Shown piece after piece: positions 28,207 to 34,955 of a DNA stretch of 64,000 nt. Each line of letters opens with the position of its first letter. The stretch's first letter is position 1. The notes beneath the pieces were generated by a model. It saw only the letters and a list, made by a program, of their open reading frames with translations. It made no database searches and was not told where the DNA came from. Where the stretch lies: the NCBI GenBank assembly GCA_026398275.1, contig JAPLTF010000018.1, positions 62,001 to 126,000 of the forward strand, in the 5' to 3' direction. Both the position numbers and the translations under genes were made by a program. This stretch comes from Verrucomicrobiota bacterium (GTDB taxonomy: Bacteria; Verrucomicrobiota; Verrucomicrobiia; Chthoniobacterales; Terrimicrobiaceae).

Positions 28207-28304
28207 ATTCGTCTATCGCAAACAATCCGGAGACTCAGCGATCCATTCCGGAAAAAATCCCCCAAACTCCGAGGGATTTCTGGTAGTCTCTCGTTCAAGA
28301 AGTC

Positions 28305-28622
28305 ATGAAGACACGCCATTTCGACGAATTGCTGGCGGACTACCGGGGGGCAGCCATCCCCGGGCTTCCCGCTTCGTTTTCCACCAATGTCCTCCGTGAA
28401 ATCCGGCTGCGAGTCTCGGAGGCCAAGAAGGACCCCGGCTGGCTTGCCCTGCTGCTGTCCTGCCTGCGCCCGGGAATGGTTGCCGCAAGTCTAAGCATCG
28501 CGCTGGTCGTGGGCGTGCTTGTTCCGGAACTCACCCGCGGAACTGGCAACTCCCTGGCGGCGCACGGGCTCGGGCTCGATGTCTTTTCCACCTCGAACAT
28601 GCCTTCCGGGCTGCTCAAATGA
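28305..28622 (+). CDS. Small anti-sigma-like membrane protein (CnrY-like position)
   Basis: 105 residues. A charged cytosolic part with LPASFSTNVLREIRLRV is followed by one transmembrane helix (about 55-73: PGMVAASLSIALVVGVLVP) and a short periplasmic tail. No database family is recalled with certainty. It heads a three-gene operon whose other members are a metal-sensor-like periplasmic protein and an ECF sigma factor. Size, topology and position equal those of CnrY, the anti-sigma of the cnrYXH system, so an anti-sigma role is inferred. The stop overlaps the next start (ATGA). Confidence 0.6.
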   Translation: MKTRHFDELLADYRGAAIPGLPASFSTNVLREIRLRVSEAKKDPGWLALLLSCLRPGMVAASLSIALVVGVLVPELTRGTGNSLAAHGLGLDVFSTSNMPSGLLK

Positions 28623-29074
28623 AAAAGCTCGCCGCGGCCCTGCTCTTCCTGCTGCTGGTTTTTGCGGTTGCCGTTGCCGGCGCAAGGCTTTCCTGCGCGA
28701 TAAGCTGCTGGATGCGCCCGTCGCACCAGGACGCCCACGACTGGATTCACACGCAGCTTGGTCTGACGCCGCAGCAGGAGGCCGGTCTCGATGCCCTCGA
28801 GAAAAGCTACCACGAAAAGCGCCTCGGATTTGAACGCGGACTCGCCCGGGGAAACAAGGATCTCGCCGAAGCGATCCGCTCGGATGGCGGAGACTCCGAC
28901 CGTGTCCATGCCGCCATCGGAAAGATCCATTCCAACATGGGCGAATTGCAGATGCTCACGATCGGACATGTTTTCCAGATGAAGGAAATCCTGAGTCCGG
29001 AGCAGTATCAAAAGCTCCTGAATTTTACAGCGGACGCGCTCGACAACCTCAACTCCCGGCATGGAGGAGAATGA
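28619..29074 (+). CDS. CnrX-like periplasmic heavy-metal sensor
   Basis: 151 residues with an N-terminal anchor or signal (KKLAAALLFLLLVFAVAVAG) and an all-helical periplasmic domain. HxxxH (H40, H44), E61, and HxxxM (H117, M121) match the spacing of the metal ligands that I recall for CnrX of Cupriavidus metallidurans (H42, H46, E63, H119, M123), all shifted by two. Such proteins sense nickel or cobalt and control release of the sigma factor by the membrane anti-sigma. It overlaps the sigma gene by 14 bases. The Spy/LTXXQ-like pattern LGLTPQQEAGLDAL is also present. Confidence 0.75.
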   Translation: MKKLAAALLFLLLVFAVAVAGARLSCAISCWMRPSHQDAHDWIHTQLGLTPQQEAGLDALEKSYHEKRLGFERGLARGNKDLAEAIRSDGGDSDRVHAAIGKIHSNMGELQMLTIGHVFQMKEILSPEQYQKLLNFTADALDNLNSRHGGE

Positions 29075-29660
29075 CAGCGCCGATGACTGGGCACTTGCGC
29101 GTCGTGCCGCCGGCGGGGACGAAGCAGCCTACGCTGTCCTGATCGGGCGCCATCAGGGGCCGATTCATGGTTTCATTTTCCGCTCGGCGGGAGATGTGGA
29201 GACCGCCCGGGACCTGACGCAGGAAGTGTTCGTCAAAGCCTGGTTCGCGCTCGGACGGGTCCAGGAGCGCGCCCGGTTCTCGACATGGCTGTTTCAAATC
29301 GCCGCCAACCTCTGCCGCGACCATGCGAAATCGAAGGCGGCCCGCAACGCCCGCATGACGAATCCCCTCGCCCGCGATAAGGATGACGGCGGCACGGAAG
29401 AACGCGACTTCCCCCACCCGGGCCTGTCACCCGACAACCAGGCCCAGATGAATGAAACGATGACGGCGCTGCATCGTGCGATTGCCTCCCTGCCCGTCGA
29501 ACTCCGCGAGGCGTTTATCCTCGGGGCCATCGACCAGCTCCCCCACAAGGAAATCTCGTCCATCCTGGGAATTTCCCCCAAGGCGGTCGAGGTGCGGATC
29601 TACCGGGCAAGGAAATTCCTCACAGAACAGCTTGTCAGCGAAGGCGTCGTCGCGCCGTAA
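29061..29660 (+). CDS. ECF RNA polymerase sigma factor
   Basis: 199 residues. Region 2 spans about residues 25-90 (YAVLIGRHQGPIHGFIFRSA, then ARDLTQEVFVKAWFAL with the -10-binding helix). Region 4 spans 140-190 (LPVELREAFILGAIDQLPHK, then ISSILGISPKAVEVRIYRAR). The start inside the sensor gene follows GGCATGGAGGA. It completes the anti-sigma/sensor/sigma order of cnrYXH, so the likely signal is a divalent metal in the periplasm. The target promoter is not identified. Confidence 0.92.
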   Translation: MEENDSADDWALARRAAGGDEAAYAVLIGRHQGPIHGFIFRSAGDVETARDLTQEVFVKAWFALGRVQERARFSTWLFQIAANLCRDHAKSKAARNARMTNPLARDKDDGGTEERDFPHPGLSPDNQAQMNETMTALHRAIASLPVELREAFILGAIDQLPHKEISSILGISPKAVEVRIYRARKFLTEQLVSEGVVAP

Positions 29661-29713
29661 ATAATGAGCGGGCCGGGTGGGAGTGGAGATTGTGGCTGGC
29701 GCGCCATTGGCCG

Positions 29714-29743
29714 TTGACGGTAAAGCGGAGGAAACGGTATCAA
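29714..29743 (+). promoter_or_regulatory. Candidate promoter giving a near-leaderless TPR transcript
   Basis: TTGACG (29714-29719) and TATCAA (29738-29743) are separated by 18 bases. Transcription about seven bases later would begin at the ATG of the next gene. Weak, sequence-only evidence. Confidence 0.25.
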
Positions 29744-29749
29744 CAAGCG

Positions 29750-30346
29750 ATGAGAGACAAGCGCGCGCCCGAGCCCCCGACGTCCGTGATCGCCACCCAC
29801 TGGGCGGTGATTATCGCAATTCTGGCATTTTCCGCCGGCTCCGGAATGTCGTGGTTGATATTGCAGGAGCGGCATTCCAAGCCGACTGGCTCGCAGCCGC
29901 CGGCATTCCCAACCCAAACGACCGGACCCGCCGCGGGCGGTTCGAGCTTCGCCGCGCCTGATGTTTCGCAAATGTCTCCCGCGGAGGCGGCGCTGGCGCT
30001 CGGCAACTGGAATTACGATCACCAGGGATGGCAGAGGGCGATCGAGTCCTACCAGCGCGCCATCTCCCTCGGAATGGAGAGCGCCGATGTCCGCACCGAT
30101 CTTGGCAACGCCCTGCGGTTTTCCGGCGAGCCGGAAAAAGCGCTCGAGCAATACCAGGCCGCCCGGAGGCTGAATCCGCAGCACGAGAACAGCCTCTGCA
30201 ACATGGCGACCCTATACGCTCAGGTTCTCAATGATCCCGCCAGCGCAGTGGCCGCGTGGAACGAGTATTTACGCCTTTTCCCCAACGGAGAAAAGTCCGC
30301 CGTTGCCAGACAGTTCGTCGCAACGGAATCACAAAAATTGCCCTGA
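29750..30346 (+). CDS. Membrane-anchored TPR protein
   Basis: 198 residues. An N-terminal signal anchor (SVIATHWAVIIAILAFSAGS) is followed by a Pro/Gly/Thr-rich linker. Tetratricopeptide repeats run from about residue 78 (AALALGNWNYDHQGWQRAIE, DVRTDLGNALRFSGEPEKAL, NSLCNMATLYAQVLNDPASA), so the TPR domain faces the periplasm. TPR proteins scaffold protein complexes; partners are unknown. It follows the sigma operon after 89 bases and may or may not be regulated by it. Confidence 0.75.
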   Translation: MRDKRAPEPPTSVIATHWAVIIAILAFSAGSGMSWLILQERHSKPTGSQPPAFPTQTTGPAAGGSSFAAPDVSQMSPAEAALALGNWNYDHQGWQRAIESYQRAISLGMESADVRTDLGNALRFSGEPEKALEQYQAARRLNPQHENSLCNMATLYAQVLNDPASAVAAWNEYLRLFPNGEKSAVARQFVATESQKLP

Positions 30347-30628: not shown

Positions 30629-31096
30629 TCACAGGTTCTGAGGGCTGCCGCCAAGCGGCTTCCGGATCTCCCCGCAGCCCAGCATGTCCGCGCCGAAATA
30701 GGGGTTCGCGATCTTTTTTCCGATCTGGATCCACGAGGCTTTGGCCATCGGGCAGAACGCCTCGTAATACTGGCCGGCGATCGATTTTTGTGACAAGAGC
30801 GCCGTGATGAGGGCGGCGCTGAGGGGCTTGAACGCTTCGCGGGCCGCCTGGATGTCTGCGGCCTTCGCCAGCACCCCGGCTTGCACAGCCACGGGAACGG
30901 CTCCGTCGCTGGCCTTCGCGATGGAGGCAATTTCGGCGGCCGCCTCCGGGACGCCTTTCAAGGAATCGCCGGCCAGAGCGGTCTGGATCTGAATGTATTT
31001 GTCGAGGGCGGCTTGCAGCGGGGCAGCCGCCGGTGCGGCCTGCAACGAGGCGGCGGCCGCGATGGCAATGACGGAGAGGATGGCGCGATATTTCAT
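30629..31096 (-). CDS. DUF3347 periplasmic protein
   Basis: 155 residues from MKYRAILSVIAIAAAASLQA, a signal peptide. The mature part is helical, with ALDKYIQIQTALAGDSLKG, and ends with the family signature YYEAFCPMAKASWIQIGKKI then NPYFGADMLGCGEIRK. DUF3347 domains occur alone or fused to RND-type metal efflux adaptors (CusB-like); the Cys-Pro-Met segment suggests metal or redox chemistry, which is inference. It lies near a CnrX-like operon, so a metal-stress role is plausible. The ATG has no Shine-Dalgarno site. Confidence 0.8.
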   Translation of the reverse strand: MKYRAILSVIAIAAAASLQAAPAAAPLQAALDKYIQIQTALAGDSLKGVPEAAAEIASIAKASDGAVPVAVQAGVLAKAADIQAAREAFKPLSAALITALLSQKSIAGQYYEAFCPMAKASWIQIGKKIANPYFGADMLGCGEIRKPLGGSPQNL

Positions 31097-31197
31097 AACA
31101 GGAGGTGCAACGAGAGCTTTTGCGGAATCCCTCAAAAGAGTTTTCCCCCGCATTTTCGTTTCGCCCTCCGGCACCGGATGGCCCACAGTGGCGGCAT

Positions 31198-33302: not shown

Positions 33303-34955
33303 TTACGCTTTCAGACAGTCAATCAGATCAGCCTCAGCCGTCGTGATCGGCAGCAGGTTGAACTTCTCCTGGAGGGCCGCCACGATCGCCGGCGTCGCAA
33401 AGGCCGGCAGCGTCGGCCCGAGGCGGATGTTGCGCACGCCCAGATGCAGAAGCGTCAGCAGGACGGCCACCGCCTTCTGCTCATACCACGAAATGTTGAG
33501 AGAGAGCGGAAGATCGTTGATGCCGCAGCCGAAGGCCTCGGCCAGCGCGGAGGCGATCTTGATGGCCGAATACGCGTCGTTGCACTGCCCGCAATCGAGC
33601 AGCCGCGGGATGCCCCCGATCGTGCCAAAGTCGTTCCGGTTGAAACGGAACTTTCCGCACCCGAGCGTGAGGATCACGCAATCGGAGGGGATCTGCTCGG
33701 TGAATTCGGTGTAGTAGTTGCGGCCGGTTTTTGCCCCGTCGCACCCGCCGACAAGGAAGAAATGCCGGATGGCACCGGATTTCACCGCAGCCACAACCTG
33801 ATCGGCAACACCGAGGACGGCATTGTGACCGAATCCGAGCGTGAGGGTTTTGCCATCGACGTCGGCCGGAAACCCGGGCGAGCGCAGGGCGGTCTTGATG
33901 ACTGCCGAAAAATCCCGCCCGTCCAGATGTCGGATCCCCGGCCACGCCACGAGCCCGCAGGTGAAGAGCCTCTGGAAATAGCTCTGCTTCGGAAGCTGGA
34001 TGCAGTTCGTCGTCATGAGGATCGCTCCGGGAAACCGGTCAAAATCCCGCGCCTGGTCCTGCCAGGCTCCACCGTAGTGGCCGGCCAGATTCGGAAACTT
34101 GTGGAGCTCCGGATACCCGTGCGCCGGGAGCATCTCCCCATGGGTATACACGTTGATCCCGGTCCCTTGTGTCTGTTCGAGAAGGGACATCAAATCCTCC
34201 AGGTTGTGCCCGGAAACCAAAATGCACGGGCCGGCGACCGGATCGAGGCGGACGTGCGTCGGCACCGGATGCCCGAAGCGTTTCGTGTGCACGCCGTCGA
34301 GGGATTCCAAAACCTTGAAGTTGGCCTCGCCGCACCTCATGCACAGGCCGAGCAGTTGGTCGATGGTCGTCGCCTCGCCCGGCGCAATGGCCGCAAGGGC
34401 TTCAAAAATAAAGAGCGATGTCTCCCCCGTGTCGCCTCCCGCATCGCGAACGTGCCAGGCATAGGCCGCCATGCCTTTCAGCCCGTAGGTCAGCAGTTCC
34501 TGCAGGCCGAGCAAATCCGCCCCGATGTCCTCCTGCCGGCTCTCGATCCCCGCATCCTCGCCCTGGCGAATCAGGTCGTCCAGGTTTCCAGCCGGAACAA
34601 AACACGTCGCGCCGTTGAACGATGCGGGATCGAGCTCTCCCCGGACCCCGGCATAAAGCTTCCGCGCCGCATCGAGGTGCCGCCCCGCCTCATCCAGCAT
34701 GCCCTGCAGCCGGACCGGATCGAAGTTCACGTTCGTCACCGTCGTGAACAGCGCGTCGAGCGCGAACCGCTCCAACGCCTCCGACCGCGACCCCGCCTCC
34801 GCCGCACGGTGCGCAAAAACGCTCACCCCCTTCAGCGCGTGCAGCAGCAGGTCCTGCAGCGCCGCCGTCTCGGGATTTTTTCCGCAGACCCCAACGGCCG
34901 TGCAGCCGGTGCGTTGCGACGATTGCTCACATTGATAACAAAACATGGAACTCAT
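33303..34955 (-). CDS. hcp: Hydroxylamine reductase (hybrid cluster protein, class I)
   Basis: 550 residues. The N-terminal cluster ligands CX2CX8CX5C are C6, C9, C18 and C24 in FCYQCEQSSQRTGCTAVGVC. The hybrid-cluster region has LGLCMRCGEANF, VSGHNLEDLM and HGEMLPAHGYPELHKF, then TNCIQLP, LVGGCDGA and LTLGCGKFRFN. Hcp reduces hydroxylamine in vitro and acts on NO or S-nitrosothiols in nitrosative stress. The reductase partner Hcr is not adjacent. The start is 34955 or the ATG three codons later. An AT-rich promoter region precedes it. Confidence 0.96.
   Translation of the reverse strand: MSSMFCYQCEQSSQRTGCTAVGVCGKNPETAALQDLLLHALKGVSVFAHRAAEAGSRSEALERFALDALFTTVTNVNFDPVRLQGMLDEAGRHLDAARKLYAGVRGELDPASFNGATCFVPAGNLDDLIRQGEDAGIESRQEDIGADLLGLQELLTYGLKGMAAYAWHVRDAGGDTGETSLFIFEALAAIAPGEATTIDQLLGLCMRCGEANFKVLESLDGVHTKRFGHPVPTHVRLDPVAGPCILVSGHNLEDLMSLLEQTQGTGINVYTHGEMLPAHGYPELHKFPNLAGHYGGAWQDQARDFDRFPGAILMTTNCIQLPKQSYFQRLFTCGLVAWPGIRHLDGRDFSAVIKTALRSPGFPADVDGKTLTLGFGHNAVLGVADQVVAAVKSGAIRHFFLVGGCDGAKTGRNYYTEFTEQIPSDCVILTLGCGKFRFNRNDFGTIGGIPRLLDCGQCNDAYSAIKIASALAEAFGCGINDLPLSLNISWYEQKAVAVLLTLLHLGVRNIRLGPTLPAFATPAIVAALQEKFNLLPITTAEADLIDCLKA

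Follow-up and report, generated by a model that had tools for sequence, protein, structure and literature searches.

Which metal activates a CnrYXH-type sigma factor operon in a member of the Verrucomicrobiota, and can the answer be read from the ligands of its sensor? CnrX is a structurally well-studied metal-sensing sigma regulator that has been taken as a nickel/cobalt device, and the preliminary description of the present locus likewise called its sensor nickel/cobalt-type. The operon belongs to a Verrucomicrobiota metagenome-assembled genome of the family Terrimicrobiaceae and lies in a stretch of 64,000 nucleotides, hereafter the window, where it occupies positions 28305-29660 of the + strand. 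It comprises genes for a CnrY-like putative anti-sigma factor (28305..28622, +; 105 amino acids with a short cytoplasmic part, one predicted transmembrane segment and the short periplasmic tail LDVFS..MPSGLLK), a CnrX-like periplasmic metal sensor (28619..29074, +; 151 amino acids with an N-terminal transmembrane segment) and an ECF sigma factor (29061..29660, +; 199 amino acids). The likeness to cnrYXH in order and topology proposed earlier thus holds for the three reading frames, their strand, their overlaps and the membrane segment of the sensor. The first two genes overlap by ATGA and the last two by 14 nt, as would be expected of translationally coupled partners, and the sensor is single-copy in the source genome.

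The sensor was assigned to Pfam Metal_resist (PF13801, E 1.9e-15, over the gathering score), and in a phmmer search against the PDB the best six sequences were CnrX (E 2.8e-9 to 5e-8) and the seventh NccX (3e-7). The alignment with CnrX is gap-free across query residues 35-140, and therefore all five metal ligands pair with those of CnrX at an offset of +2, just as the preliminary description had counted them: H40 (codon 28736..28738, +) with H42, H44 (28748..28750, +) with H46, E61 (28799..28801, +) with E63, H117 (28967..28969, +) with H119 and M121 (28979..28981, +) with M123. A structural alignment with CnrX had been suggested as a check, and it gave the same register. In an AlphaFold model of the sensor, built from three sequences (pLDDT 84.9), the best Foldseek matches were CnrX, and VIA-align paired model residues 39..144 with residues 41..146 of 4wwb, i.e. 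again at +2; the Z score of 11.6 is for helical bundles not strong alone, but CnrX rows lead the matches. The membrane segment, read from the sequence and from model helix 2-31, is followed by a periplasmic helical domain as in CnrX. Among 13 verrucomicrobial homologues of the sensor, H40, H44, E61 and H117 are invariant and M121 is kept in nine, being replaced by Leu in one clade of four; at 30-60% identity few columns are invariant, and the ligands belong to them. A chance match of the ligands is ruled out by the gap-free alignment, and as judged from these comparisons the likeness to CnrX is homology. Outside the five ligands, most verrucomicrobial sensors and the copper-linked ones of alphaproteobacteria have His at column 104. 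CnrX has Glu there, and a branch that adjoins TonB receptors has Asn or Ser. The column could be a lead towards a specificity determinant, one that is confounded by descent.

For the 105-residue protein encoded upstream, no Pfam match was obtained, and a profile of 11 anti-sigma factors did not find CnrY in the PDB, so its putative role as anti-sigma factor rests on position, size, the one hydrophobic segment and conservation (V29, R31, I33 and F94). The only feature in common with CnrY is P-x-x-L-L in the tail. The periplasmic tails (window 28562-28619 and relatives) have LDVF and P-S-G-L-L in the window protein, L-A-P-S-x-L-L in most sphingomonad copies and S-P-F-G-L-L in CnrY, and this part of the protein is possibly a docking site for the sensor. 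A universal PSxLL tail was considered and dropped, as the motif is present in the order of the source genome, in the alphaproteobacteria and loosely in CnrY, and missing from the rest of the phylum.

The third protein has both sigma domains (Sigma70_r2, 1.7e-15; r4_2, 1e-16) and matches CnrH in the PDB (4cxf, 1.7e-16), although AlgU, RpoE and SigW outscore CnrH in pairwise comparison. In a sigma factor tree with thin outgroup sampling, the window sigma groups with three family members (99/97) and falls, together with CnrH and all proteobacterial YXH sigmas, into a starred clade (95/94) made up of 21 YXH-type rows only, which places it in the CnrH lineage as far as the outgroup allows. Within this clade, CnrH and a near copy branch among copper-linked rows (94/83, not starred). 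Such a topology would fit a copper-sensing ancestor of CnrYXH, short of showing one.

The genes that this sigma factor may control were sought through its putative promoter. A GAGGGA-N15-CGTT element at 28271..28295 (+), 9 nt before the ATG of the anti-sigma gene, is conserved in relatives, and a second copy at 31109..31133 (-) precedes a gene for a periplasmic DUF3347 protein. These two exact copies in the window compare with 0.15 expected, and none of 100 shuffles reached two. The same element is common to the upstream regions of the operon in relatives and was found at 13 of 18 further operons across the phylum, mostly 9-10 nt before the ATG; on several alphaproteobacterial plasmids it reads GAGGG[AG]-N15-CGTA, a form that also suits the promoters of cnrC and cnrY in CH34 (GAGGGG/AGGGGG-N15/16-CGTA). 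By its sequence elements and position, the operon has a predicted autoregulated promoter of the CnrH type. Start sites of cnr in CH34 are reported to lie 23-25 nt before the genes (PMC9045368), i.e. about 9-10 nt after CGTA; equal spacing in the window leads to 28304-28305, the start codon, and the operon mRNA would, on this calibration with mapped CnrH start sites, be leaderless. In two relatives (L022:1179-1234 and L032:5168-5223), back-to-back promoters face the operon and a divergent gene for a secreted protein of about 140 amino acids. Near 28260 of the window, the minus strand has a GGGGGA half without a -10, which looks as if it were the remnant of a lost divergent promoter.

Across the source genome the motif has 11 matches, against three for a reversed control. 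Three of the 11 sit 9-12 nt before a start codon, namely those of the sigma operon, of the DUF3347 gene and of the outer-membrane gene of an RND operon, and for the other eight, rough ORF calls gave no such gene start. In relatives that have the sensor the motif is clustered at metal genes, and two congeners without the sensor had no excess over the reversed control (6 vs 6 and 1 vs 0). The predicted target within the window, at 30629..31096 (-), encodes 155 amino acids (MKYRAILS...), and its ATG lies 12 nt after CGTT. Its assignment to DUF3347 is by PF11827 at 25.8 bits against a cut-off of 25.5; DUF3347 also matches the C-terminal part of a CusB of one relative at 21.9 bits, under the cut-off, and NCBIfam names (LIC13259 family) were below cut-off and set aside. 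The other predicted target is on contig C14, where an OMF-CusB-CusA operon begins 12 nt after the motif. Its pump is the sole match in the genome over the TIGR00914 cut-off, and the operon is its only heavy-metal RND operon; the pump scores 1148 bits against CusA and 509 against ZneA, and keeps methionines at the positions of CusA M573, M623 and M672. It also carries AIGAMVDAVIIMIEN, almost unchanged in the CusA alignment and which we take to be typical of Cu/Ag pumps. The adaptor is best matched by CusB (PRK09783, below its cut-off with 180 of 390 bits) and has a heavy-metal-binding domain. Membership of the CusA family, the HME4-type motif in TM4, the three pore methionines and the CusB metal-binding domain together mark this as a predicted CusCBA operon, linked to the sigma operon, which is on another contig, by one 10-base pattern and its position.

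Some further candidates were left aside. The TPR gene at 29690-30346, 3' of the sigma gene, is without a GAGGGA-N15-CGTT promoter and is therefore not in the target list, and no such site was found upstream of the CopA ATPase gene of the genome (C65). A Cu-oxidase_3 search returned no multicopper oxidase in the source genome. A gene for a hybrid-cluster (prismane) protein at 33303-34955 (-) of the window (PF03063, E 1.3e-152) showed no link to the sigma operon.

The neighbourhoods of related sensors extend this picture. In 43 of 387 genomes sampled from the phylum, the sensor profile found a match, strongly so in 21 (E < 1e-19); an ECF sigma gene follows just downstream in 19 of 19 strong loci checked, and the HHEHM site is kept in 16 of these. 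Within the stretches retrieved, ten other verrucomicrobial sensor loci have a CusA with Met triad; several loci adjoin genes for multicopper oxidase (PcoA), CopB or a heavy-metal ATPase. HHEHM is also the site of copper-linked alphaproteobacterial sensors, and in 10 of 10 non-Cupriavidus plasmid records from sphingomonads and Caulobacter, picked from the top of the match lists and not a random sample, the operon lies among copAB, copCD, cueR or copper ATPase genes. Several relatives lie next to an RND pump of the DDAIVDVEN type, which lacks the Met triad, or next to a TonB receptor. The clade with Leu for M121 (HIFEL; L027-L030, in G019, G016, G011 and G020) precedes an RND operon; TM4 of the pump there reads DDAIVDVEN and the Met triad is absent, so that ligand and pump type change together. 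In one family (L147-L150) it is a TonB-dependent receptor of 686-707 amino acids, not efflux genes, that stands beside the sensor and sigma genes; here column 104 is Asn or Ser, and the GAGGGA-N15-CGTT promoter was not found. At L024:3372-3953 (G042), a second ECF sigma gene lies directly 3' of a CusA gene, near the sensor operon.

Taken together, the operon is probably a CnrYXH-type system that copper, possibly also silver, activates from the periplasm, a reading of the metal that comes from the neighbours and the predicted targets. Copper is probably sensed rather than nickel or cobalt because the predicted promoters precede copper/silver export genes. The nickel/cobalt assignment of the preliminary description was thus not borne out: it had followed the ligands, and HHEHM occurs in copper-linked sensors, which means that the metal cannot be told from the ligands. 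Crystals of CnrX itself have been obtained with copper (3epv), as well as with Ni, Co and Zn, and copper upregulates the cnr cluster of CH34 (PMC7563307). On the other side, CnrX with identical ligands serves nickel and cobalt, the genome's own CopA is without a site, a Cu-oxidase_3 protein is absent and some of the relatives' pumps lack the Met triad. A plain CnrYXH orthologue, sensing nickel and cobalt and controlling their efflux, would agree with the retention of all five CnrX ligands, among them the methionine that Ni/Co signalling requires (PMC7689651), but we regard it as unlikely: the genome has no CnrA/CzcA-type (DFG) pump above the TIGR00914 cut-off, its one match there being CusA-type, and across two phyla operons with the identical ligand set adjoin copper genes.

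We likewise give little credence to a sensor for a broad range of divalent metals (Cu, Ni, Co and perhaps Zn) that is not truly selective and whose specificity would lie in which metal reaches the periplasm. The four metals bound in CnrX crystals, the upregulation of the cnr cluster of CH34 by copper (PMC7563307) and the differing pump types beside relatives would all suit such a sensor, but the copper genes consistently found nearby point to selection on copper, and Zn-CnrX is non-functional (PMC7689651). It is highly improbable that the protein is an envelope-stress regulator of the Spy/CpxP/ZraP kind, acting on the sigma factor without metal and with merely inherited ligands; it belongs to the same helical family and has weak profile matches to LTXXQ (1.3e-4) and Spy (2.9e-5), yet its ligands stand out as invariant among diverged homologues and the predicted regulon is one of metal genes.

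Under the copper reading, and by analogy with CnrYXH, the anti-sigma factor, held by its one membrane segment, would sequester the sigma factor at rest, while the membrane-anchored sensor would touch it in the periplasm. Metal binding at H40/H44/E61/H117/M121 would alter the sensor, upon which the anti-sigma factor would free the sigma factor. The latter could then direct RNA polymerase to GAGGGA-N15-CGTT at its own operon, the DUF3347 gene and the unlinked cusCBA-like operon.

Compared with CnrYXH of Cupriavidus metallidurans CH34 (pMOL28), gene order, overlaps, sensor fold, the five ligands, promoter architecture, autoregulation (predicted here) and an RND target are alike. The pump, however, is CusA-type and unlinked, whereas CnrCBA is adjacent in CH34; the -10 is CGTT instead of CGTA; the inferred leader has about 0 nt where that of CH34 has 23-25 nt; column 104 is His instead of Glu; and the anti-sigma factor has no detectable sequence similarity to CnrY. 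CnrYXH and NccYXH systems are characterised by a CnrCBA/NccCBA-type RND pump for nickel and cobalt, while the promoter-bearing RND operon here is CusA-type, and we therefore speak of a CnrYXH-type operon and not of a Cnr/Ncc nickel system. The plasmid YXH operons of sphingomonads and Caulobacter share the three-gene order, the HHEHM site and the copper-gene neighbours, and several have a GAGGG[AG]-N15-CGTA promoter like that of the window, but their targets are usually copAB (multicopper oxidase and CopB) directly downstream instead of cusCBA and DUF3347. SigAb-AabA-AabB of Acinetobacter baumannii is also a copper-induced ECF sigma factor with two small anti-sigma factors, one of them modelled like CnrY, but there the sigma gene comes first, metal genes are indirect targets and CnrX is not mentioned (PMC12153292). 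CorE of Myxococcus xanthus is a copper-responsive ECF sigma factor as well, but senses via its own cysteine-rich C-terminus and has no anti-sigma factor (PMC10141476). In a literature search that was thin on subscription journals, we found no paper on CnrX in Verrucomicrobia, in line with the earlier remark that the sensor is little known in the phylum, and none describing a copper-linked CnrYXH; because of this coverage, the novelty of the copper-linked operon is provisional.

If sensors of two phyla indeed use these five ligands for copper, the metal is not determined by ligand identity alone, and near-identical metal sites become directly comparable. The Verrucomicrobiota would also gain a copper-responsive sigma system whose regulon is compact and predictable and whose promoter layout is unusual and apparently leaderless. 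More tentatively, and with the odds somewhat against it, CnrYXH-type signalling may be primarily copper-sensing across Verrucomicrobiota and Alphaproteobacteria, the Ni/Co CnrYXH of Cupriavidus being a derived re-specialisation that keeps the five ligands and has its specificity outside the first shell, e.g. at column 104. The same families also have, next to ECF sigmas, a second type of sensor (L034, L035, L036, L037 and L016), in which conserved cysteines (MC.RI, ECR) take the place of the His ligands; its sigma factors form their own clade in the tree.
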